Positions 12,014 to 14,160 of a stretch of DNA of 34,112 bases are shown here, piece by piece. Below the pieces are notes generated by a model. That model had not been told where the DNA came from. It did not search any database and was given only the letters and a program-made list of their open reading frames with translations. The position numbers and the translations under genes are program-made. The first letter of the stretch is position 1; every line of letters starts with the position of its first letter. Source of the stretch: Massilia sp. (GTDB lineage: Bacteria > Pseudomonadota > Gammaproteobacteria > Burkholderiales > Burkholderiaceae_D); assembly GCA_028291845.1 (NCBI GenBank), contig JAQGNM010000362.1, positions 1 to 34,112 of the forward strand. Reading direction: 5' to 3'.

Positions 12014-12156
12014 GGCGGTCGCGGCAGTAATAAAGCGCCAGTATCGCAGTTCAATGGCAAATGCGCCGCCGCGATTCCGCTGGGAATGTCGCCGCCTGTG
12101 GCCCGGCACGCGGTAACATCGCTGTTTTACTCACCTTGCCAGGGGACGAACCGTTC

Positions 12157-12675
12157 ATGCAAACCCCACCTGCTTCCCCACAACGCTGGGTTGTCATGGG
12201 CGTTTCCGGCTGCGGCAAGAGCGCCGTCGGACAGCAGCTGGCCGACCTGCTGCAGGTCGAGTTCGTCGAAGGCGACGCCTGGCACAGTCCGGCCAGCATT
12301 GCCAAGATGGCCGCCGGCATCGCCCTGACCGACGCCGACCGCGCCGACTGGCTGCAGCGCCTGCGGGAGCGCATCGCCGCCGCGCGCGCCGCCGGCGTCG
12401 GCCTGGTACTGGCCTGCTCGGCCCTGAAACGCCGCTATCGCGACCTGCTGCGCCAGGGCGATCCCGCCCTGTGCTTCGCCCACCTGGACGGCGCCCCCAC
12501 CCTGATCGCCCAGCGCATGCACGCGCGCACCGGCCACTTCATGCCGCCGTCCCTGCTCGAAAGTCAACTGCGCGACCTCGAACCGCTCGAACCCGACGAG
12601 TGCGGCATCCGCCTCGACATCGCCAAATCAACCGCAACGCTGGCGCAAGAAACTGCCGATTTTCATCAGCAATAA
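12157..12675 (+). CDS. gntK: Gluconokinase
   Basis: WVVMGVSGCGKSAVGQQLADLL...EGDAWHSPASIAKMAAGIALTDADRADWLQRL...ACSALKRRYRDLLR. Confidence 0.9.
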   Translation: MQTPPASPQRWVVMGVSGCGKSAVGQQLADLLQVEFVEGDAWHSPASIAKMAAGIALTDADRADWLQRLRERIAAARAAGVGLVLACSALKRRYRDLLRQGDPALCFAHLDGAPTLIAQRMHARTGHFMPPSLLESQLRDLEPLEPDECGIRLDIAKSTATLAQETADFHQQ

Positions 12676-12703
12676 AAAAAGGCGCCTAAGCGCCTTTTAA
12701 AAA
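12674..12703. terminator. Rho-independent terminator downstream of gntK
   Basis: AATAAAAAAAGGCGCCTAAGCGCCTTTTAAAA: GGCGC/GCGCC stem flanked by A- and T-tracts, overlapping the gntK stop. Confidence 0.85.
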
Positions 12704-12770
12704 ATGCAAACCACCAAGTCACTCCCCGAGGCGACGCATGATCCGAATCGGGTCTACGTCCAAAAATCAT

Positions 12771-12783
12771 CCGGCTCCGCCGG
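12771..12783 (+). repeat. Left copy of 13-bp target-site duplication CCGGCTCCGCCGG
   Basis: Identical to 12965-12977; directly abuts the terminal inverted repeat of the 181-bp element. Confidence 0.85.
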
Positions 12784-12964
12784 TAATGCCGTTCAGTTAA
12801 GCACGCTCGGCCCGAGCGCCCGTGAGATTTGCATGCATGGGACAGTCACCCTCAGGTGCCAGACCCCCAACAAATAGCCGCCCGGATCCTCAGCAGCAGG
12901 GGGACTGGCGCCGCAGGTGCCTGTCCCATTGGGTGCGCACTCACGCCTTAACTGAACACCATTA
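12784..12964. mobile_element. MITE-like 181-bp non-autonomous element with IS4-family-like terminal inverted repeats
   Basis: Left end TAATGCCGTTCAGTTAAG, right end (reverse complement) TAATGGTGTTCAGTTAAG: 16/18 match. Perfect 13-bp flanking direct repeats, no transposase ORF. Confidence 0.8.
12837..12929. repeat. REPIN-like inverted pair, copy B (opposite arrangement), inside the MITE-like element
   Basis: ATGGGACAGTCACCCTCAGGTGCCAGACCCCC (12837-12868) and AGGGGGACTGGCGCCGCAGGTGCCTGTCCCAT (12898-12929). The second is 31/32 identical to the left unit of copy A. Confidence 0.85.
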
Positions 12965-12977
12965 CCGGCTCCGCCGG
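12965..12977 (+). repeat. Right copy of 13-bp target-site duplication CCGGCTCCGCCGG
   Basis: Identical to 12771-12783; followed by TGATTTTTG, the partner of CAAAAATCA upstream of the left copy. Confidence 0.85.
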
Positions 12978-13038
12978 TGATTTTTGCCTGACTGGTTCTG
13001 CGCCGCTAAGCCGCTTTTCCTTGGCCTACTGACTAGAA

Positions 13039-13068
13039 CAAACAAAAGTAGGGGTGTACTTTTGTTTG
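13039..13068 (-). terminator. Hairpin directly after the ychF stop (probable terminator)
   Basis: CAAACAAAAGTA-GGGGTG-TACTTTTGTTTG: 12-bp perfect stem, 6-nt loop, abutting the ychF stop codon. Confidence 0.6.
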
Positions 13069-14160
13069 CTAAACATTGAATAGGAAGTTCAGCACATCCC
13101 CATCCTTCACCACATACTCTTTCCCCTCGGCACGCATCTTGCCCGCTTCCTTGGCGCCCGCCTCACCCTTGTAGGCGATGAAGTCGTCATAGGCGATGGT
13201 CTGGGCGCGAATGAAACCGCGCTCGAAATCGGTGTGGATGACGCCGGCCGCTTGCGGGGCGGTGTCGCCGATGTGGATGGTCCAGGCGCGCACTTCCTTG
13301 ACGCCGGCGGTGAAATAAGTCTGCAGGCCGAGCAGCTTTTGGGCGGCGCGGATCAGGCGGTCCAGGCCGGGCTCTTCCATGCCCATGTCGGCCAGGAAAG
13401 CGCCCTTGTCCTCGTCGTCGAGGTCGGCGATTTCCGCTTCGATGGCGGCGCAGATGGCGACGATCGGCGCGTTCTGCTCCTTGGCGTAGGCGGTCAGCTG
13501 GTCCAACAGCGGGTTATTCGTAAAACCGGTGTCGGACACGTTGGCGACGAACATGGCCGGTTTTGCCGTGATCAGGCACAAGGTCTTGATGATGGCCATC
13601 TCGTCGGCATCCAGGCCCAGGGTGCGCACCGGTTTGCCTTCGTTCAGGTGCGGCAGCAGGCGTTCGCAGATCGCGACCAGCTTGGCGGCATCCTTGTCGC
13701 CCGAGCGGGCCTTTTTATTTTCGCGGTGGATGGCTTTTTCGACGGCCGCCATGTCGGCCAGCGCCAGTTCGGTCTGGATGACTTCGATGTCGTCGAGCGG
13801 GCTGATCTTGCCGGCCACGTGGATCACGTTGTCGTCCTCGAAACAGCGCACGACGTTGACGATGGCGTCGGTTTCGCGGATGTGCGACAGGAACTGGTTG
13901 CCCAGACCCTCGCCTTTCGACGCGCCCGCCACCAGCCCGGCGATGTCGACGAACTCGACGATGGCGTTGACCATCTTTTCCGGCTTGACGATGTCGGCCA
14001 GCGCCTGCATGCGTGGATCGGGCACCTCGACGACGCCGACGTTCGGCTCGATGGTGCAGAACGGATAATTTTCAGCCGGGATACCGGCCTTGGTCAGCGC
14101 ATTGAAAAGGGTGGACTTGCCGACGTTGGGCAAGCCGACGATGCCGCATTGGAGACTCAT
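13069..14160 (-). CDS. ychF: Redox-regulated ATPase/GTPase YchF
   Basis: [42 protein letters not shown]...[22 protein letters not shown]... Confidence 0.97.

Follow-up and report, generated by a model that had tools for sequence, protein, structure and literature searches.

The elements studied here, a MITE of a Massilia species, its IS4-subgroup relatives and E. coli IS4, mostly insert into intrinsic terminators, and they do so at rates that exceed those of control positions matched for the flanking target arms. The MITE lies in the 34,112-nt stretch that we analyzed (the window), part of a whole-genome draft of Massilia sp. (614 contigs, 4.85 Mb). It is very probably a non-autonomous member of the IS4 subgroup, and the transposase acting on it would target symmetric sites composed of an A-tract, a GC-rich core and a T-tract, a rule that intrinsic terminators satisfy best.

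A 181-bp MITE and its copies in the Massilia genome

The element interrupts a host repeat between convergent genes, with the following layout in the window:

12061..12675, + strand: gntK-like gluconokinase gene, context (Pfam AAA_33, SKI)
12727..13064, no strand: host target repeat, multi-hairpin and intergenic, interrupted by the MITE; its flanks match a dispersed ~200-bp repeat
12762..12766, no strand: left A-tract arm of the target, the T-tract for transcripts of the - strand
12771..12783, no strand: left target-site duplication (TSD) CCGGCTCCGCCGG, the hairpin core (window sequence; repeat alignment)
12784..12964, + strand: 181-bp MITE without a transposase reading frame (window sequence, ORFs and own-genome BLAST)
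12784..12801, + strand: left terminal inverted repeat TAATGCCGTTCAGTTAAG, which matches the left end of IS4 at 17/18
12837..12850, no strand: internal palindrome, left arm ATGGGACAGTCACC
12916..12929, no strand: internal palindrome, right arm GGTGCCTGTCCCAT
12947..12964, - strand: right terminal inverted repeat, TAATGGTGTTCAGTTAAG as read on the - strand
12965..12977, no strand: right TSD CCGGCTCCGCCGG (window sequence; repeat alignment)
12981..12985, + strand: right T-tract arm of the target, the T-tract for transcripts from the gntK side
13069..14160, - strand: ychF GTPase gene, context (Pfam YchF-GTPase_C, MMR_HSR1)

A preliminary description had reported a 181-bp element with inverted ends and a perfect 13-bp TSD, and every base of the element and its duplications is as it stated, with TAATGCCGTTCAGTTAAG and TAATGGTGTTCAGTTAAG agreeing at 16/18 positions. 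The neighbors it named, gntK and ychF, were identified by Pfam, and the IS4 ends it had given agree with the copy that we examined in MG1655 (IRL TAATGCCGATCAGTTAAG, IRR TAATGCCAGTCAGTTAAG), where the TSD is 12 bp. The MITE resembles E. coli IS4 in its left end, which differs at 1/18, in TSD length (11-13 bp in IS4) and in having targets built of A-tract, core and T-tract. Unlike the MITE, which encodes nothing, IS4 is autonomous, spans 1426 bp and encodes InsG; the interiors of the two are unrelated. The palindrome inside the MITE, GGGACAGKCACC...GGTGCCTGTCCC (12837-12929; L019-L030), is also present at loci of the same genome that lack IS4-type ends, and it resembles a REP unit that was captured by the MITE or inserted into it.

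Against its own genome, the 181-bp element gave 62 BLAST matches, of which 13 are long (107-181 bp, at least 93% identity). Assembly breaks within the repeat cut most of the long matches short at the edge of a contig. The end pattern, with up to two mismatches, was found at 17 places, against 0 for a reversed-pattern control; with the 62 matches, this means that the element is not a product of chance. The window type accounts for seven exact left ends and for eight right ends. By joining contig ends we rebuilt four more complete insertions whose halves bear matching 12- or 13-bp TSDs (C103/C112, C458/C594, C225/C155 and C497/C154), and unpaired ends lie in C182, C527, C172, C196 and C387. Together with the window copy this makes at least ten insertions, and all flanks that could be read consist of a GC-rich palindrome followed by a T-tract. 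TSDs of the 181-bp type measure 13, 12, 12, 13 and 13 bp. Its size, terminal inverted repeats, TSDs, copy number, lack of a meaningful reading frame and ends in common with full-length IS are those of a MITE. A search of 59 further genomes from the same family and order did not find the element, save for one trivial 32-bp match.

A related 104-bp element with ends TAATGCCAGTCACTTAAG occupies the same kind of hairpin in C572, with a 10-bp TSD. The MITE types of this genome other than the 181-bp one combine diverged IS4-type ends with the same GGGACAGG interior (L089 in C572, L018 in C512, L016 in C274 and L017 in C352); they span 104-164 bp in C572, C512 and C274, and the one in C352 is not fully bounded.

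The target itself is a dispersed host repeat with ~40-50 copies in this genome, many of them uninterrupted. At uninterrupted copies, among them C244, C582, C586, C109, C276 and C369, the matches to the left and right flanks of the window insertion overlap by exactly 13 bp, the length of the TSD, and the pre-insertion state can therefore be seen directly in paralogous copies. The empty site that had been deduced from the window alone, CAAAAATCAT-CCGGCTCCGCCGG-TGATTTTTG, exists in this form, for example, in C244, C582 and C276. In four genomes of the same genus, the gntK-ychF gap does not align and no orthologous empty site could be read there. We also considered that the whole 340-bp repeat, its 181-bp center included, might be one ancient repeat whose apparent TSD is an internal hairpin repeat. 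Several MITE copies do lie within the same repeat family, but many copies of that family are uninterrupted, unrelated terminators have received the MITE too (C103/C112, C387), and elements related to it, likewise with these ends and with TSDs, are found in other species. The empty copies and unrelated targets refute this reading, which can hardly be right.

The ~200-bp repeat reads CCCCGA...TCGGGG, then A-tract-CCGGCTCYGCCGG-T-tract, then TAAGCCGG, then CAAACAAAAGTAGG...CACTTTTGTTTG. It gave 53 matches in this genome against 2, 0, 0 and 1 in the four same-genus genomes, and judging from these counts it appears largely confined to this species. Example loci of this species-specific multi-hairpin intergenic unit are window positions 12727-13064, L068, L067 and L074; a comparison with Rfam gave no match above threshold.

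Full-length partners in related genomes

The end pattern TAATGNNNNTCAGTTAAG is present in 70/296 genomes of the family, whereas controls gave counts close to zero. Many matches are paired 100-280 bp apart and delimit other MITEs; other pairs lie ~1.4 kb apart and delimit elements of 1415-1433 bp. One of these (L135, in genome G210) is 1415 bp long and interrupts a perfect terminator, where a 12-bp TSD flanks it. Its transposase, an intact protein of 441 aa in which the domains Nterm_IS4 and DDE_Tnp_1 are present, matches NCBIfam IS4_1 at 272.7 bits, is 36% identical to E. coli InsG and carries YERRWQIETSYRELK, which fits the YREK motif Y-2-R-3-E-6-K. The 18-bp ends of the MITE are found on a full-length IS in G210 and, within the genus of the window, on a decayed full-length copy in G002; an intact 453-aa frame is present in G003 of the same genus. 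The multiple copies, TSDs, full-length IS4-subgroup partners in genus and family and identified transposase uphold the earlier assignment of the element as a MITE with IS4-type ends.

IS4-subgroup elements have -AATR...WTW ends and 10-13-bp direct repeats (Table 1, PMC2266710), and the MITE, with its TAATGCCGTTCAGTTAAG ends and TSDs of 12-13 bp (10 bp for the C572 type), agrees with both. The single-ORF DDE transposase of the IS4 family is lacking in the MITE, which we therefore class only as a non-autonomous derivative of the subgroup. Because Pfam and protein searches found no IS4-type transposase in its own assembly, a 614-contig draft, we infer that it is mobilized in trans. An IS4-type DDE transposase would bind the 18-bp ends of the MITE, then cut and paste it by the chemistry of the IS4 family. 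It would choose a symmetric target made of an A-tract, an ~18-bp GC-rich core and a T-tract and cut around the center with a 10-13-bp stagger, so that the core is duplicated. Insertions would fall at the apex of terminator hairpins because intrinsic terminators best meet this target rule genome-wide, and in the Massilia genome one dispersed terminator-like repeat would be the main landing pad.

In G241, G221, G108, G166, G154, G107 and G270, we observed one MITE family per species, with the same 18-bp ends and an unrelated palindromic interior. The possibility that the MITE core is an independent REP in each species was rejected, as 8/8 loci checked in G241, G221 and G108 bear IS4-type ends; by its sequence distribution, only the GGGACAGG of the Massilia genome appears to be an independent REP-like unit.

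Terminators as insertion targets

In 11 relatives, where 9/51 paired copies had no clear TSD, we assembled 42 sites duplicated over 10-13 bp; the Massilia genome gave 6 more, four of them joined from contig ends, and E. coli IS4 gave 13 (12 distinct loci). Aligned on the TSD center, the targets share A at positions -9 to -13, T at +9 to +13 and a GC-rich core between them. The two halves are complementary across the center at 64% of positions in relatives; reshuffling the right halves lowers this to 51% (z = 6.9, 0/20,000 shuffles). For E. coli IS4 the corresponding values are 67% and 48% (z = 5.2).

Counting as a strong hairpin any 31-nt core that folds below -10 kcal/mol, we found strong hairpins at 27/42 sites of relatives, 6/6 sites of the Massilia genome and 8/13 sites of E. 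coli IS4, against 5.4% of arm-matched background positions in 800 kb (22% with the strictest arms). In E. coli, strong hairpins occupy 7/12 distinct loci, tdk-adhE and pdxK-crr among them. The hairpin center lies at most 1.5 nt from the insertion center at every strong-hairpin site. Copies on named plasmids, with transposases 40-65% identical to that of L135, are in perfect terminators in Burkholderia ambifaria pBMC401, Photobacterium sp. DA100 and P. ganghwense, and the copy on Paraburkholderia phymatum pBPHY01 is in a strong terminator; the same check found no strong terminator at copies in Caballeronia, a second P. phymatum plasmid and Rhizobium. In E. coli strain 20AR0192 (L202), a copy of IS4 has an ibs type I toxin-antitoxin gene on either side and sits at a near-perfect hairpin beside ibsA.

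The hairpin or terminator targeting proposed in the preliminary description therefore stands as far as terminators are concerned, in the Massilia genome, 11 relatives, E. coli IS4 and named Burkholderiaceae/Vibrionaceae copies. Recognition of the hairpin as such cannot be told apart from recognition of the arrangement of A-tract, GC core and T-tract, and about one-third of sites are not hairpins. What the transposase appears to capture is this arrangement; it may also read the hairpin itself.

A transposase that recognizes a hairpin or cruciform, in extruded or single-stranded DNA, in place of the A/T arms is conceivable but, on balance, unlikely. The half-to-half complementarity beyond composition and the tight centering would favor such recognition, and so would the finding that 20/28 intergenic sites are hairpins, compared with 11/77 intergenic arm-matched controls (p = 5.6e-8). 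Other IS likewise insert on axes of palindromy, among them the IS4-family ISRm22 in REPs (PMC1525189). However, 15/42 sites of relatives and 5/13 E. coli sites are not strong hairpins, yet arm scores of 7-9 out of 10 are kept in 11/15 of the former. Hairpin recognition as an independent factor, strong against arm-matched and intergenic controls, adds little once the GC core is matched as well as the arms: in a model that includes intergenic position, p is then 0.50 for hairpin energy, and other hairpin measures give p = 0.03 to 0.44. Background A5-core-T5 sites are themselves hairpins in 6/8 cases. The system suits the separation of DNA-structure from DNA-sequence recognition by a DDE transposase, and a common laboratory strain would do for it, given that the pattern recurs in E. 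coli IS4.

Intergenic position contributes independently in the site model, and several E. coli IS4 copies within genes lack hairpins, as would be expected if insertion were near-random and only insertions in terminators were harmless enough to persist. Such survivorship is improbable as the explanation. Selection cannot yield exact centering on the apex, nor can it yield near-invariant A/T arms at a fixed distance, which are present in non-hairpin sites too. Targeting of the A-tract/GC-core/T-tract arrangement by the transposase accordingly remains our preferred reading.

Known IS targets and the effect on termination

Arm specificity in IS4 was known before; the terminator rule with its controls, and its extension to E. 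coli IS4, are new. The 2008 survey "IS4 family goes genomic" noted for some IS4-subgroup elements a "spectacular apparent insertion specificity in left and right target arms" and did not use the word terminator (PMC2266710). That specificity now gains a functional reading, in which the arms would be the A- and T-tracts of intrinsic terminators. In the non-subscription literature searched, we found no statement that the IS4 subgroup targets intrinsic terminators. The pheST attenuator of E. coli is said to have received an IS4, as described by Mayaux and colleagues in 1984. This is an early single case of IS4 in a terminator-type hairpin; unlike the present set, it is one event and not a rule.

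ISRm22 of S. meliloti, from the IS4Sa subgroup, inserts on the palindromy axis of REPs (Tobes and Pareja; PMC1525189, PMC2266710). Like the MITE, it is an IS4-family element on the axis of a palindromic repeat with noted arm specificity, but it is not a MITE, belongs to another subgroup and has REPs, not intrinsic terminators, as its described targets. IS231A, also of the IS4 family, reportedly prefers a symmetric GGG-N5-CCC target with bendability implicated (work of Hallet and colleagues in 1994). It shares the preference for a symmetric target with the MITE and differs in end type and consensus, and it is not known to be linked to A/T-tract terminators. Outside the family, IS1397, ISKpn1, IS621 and ISPsy8 insert in REP/PU palindromes (PMC1525189). 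As for the MITE, intergenic hairpin repeats are their landing sites. They nevertheless belong to other IS families (IS1397 to IS3, IS621 to IS110) and target repeat-specific sequence, not terminators generally.

Landing in terminators would explain how such elements multiply with little damage and predicts that IS4-type insertions mostly alter transcript ends, not coding sequences. The preliminary description had further suggested that the insertion may leave termination largely intact. By folding, the empty hairpin at the window site has -17.1 kcal/mol; after insertion, the right junction has -12.7 kcal/mol, because the ATTA terminus of the element pairs with flanking TGAT, and the left junction, on the other strand, -10.1 kcal/mol. 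Folding thus predicts a largely rebuilt terminator, and preserved termination is plausible at the window site. The suggestion carries over less well to other sites: the median fold of 41 hairpin sites falls from -15.9 kcal/mol before insertion to -6.8 and -6.4 kcal/mol after it, ~40% of the original. We regard as rather doubtful the broader proposal that the whole IS4 subgroup, in Beta- and Gammaproteobacteria alike, generally lands in intrinsic terminators, which its transposase would read as hairpin or cruciform, and that core duplication makes insertion self-sealing for termination and nearly harmless. At the window locus, gntK has its own terminator-like hairpin, GGCGCCTAAGCGCC-TTTT at 12681-12698, just 3' of the stop codon and before the interrupted repeat; the gntK-ychF gap thus contains a terminator-like hairpin besides the target.
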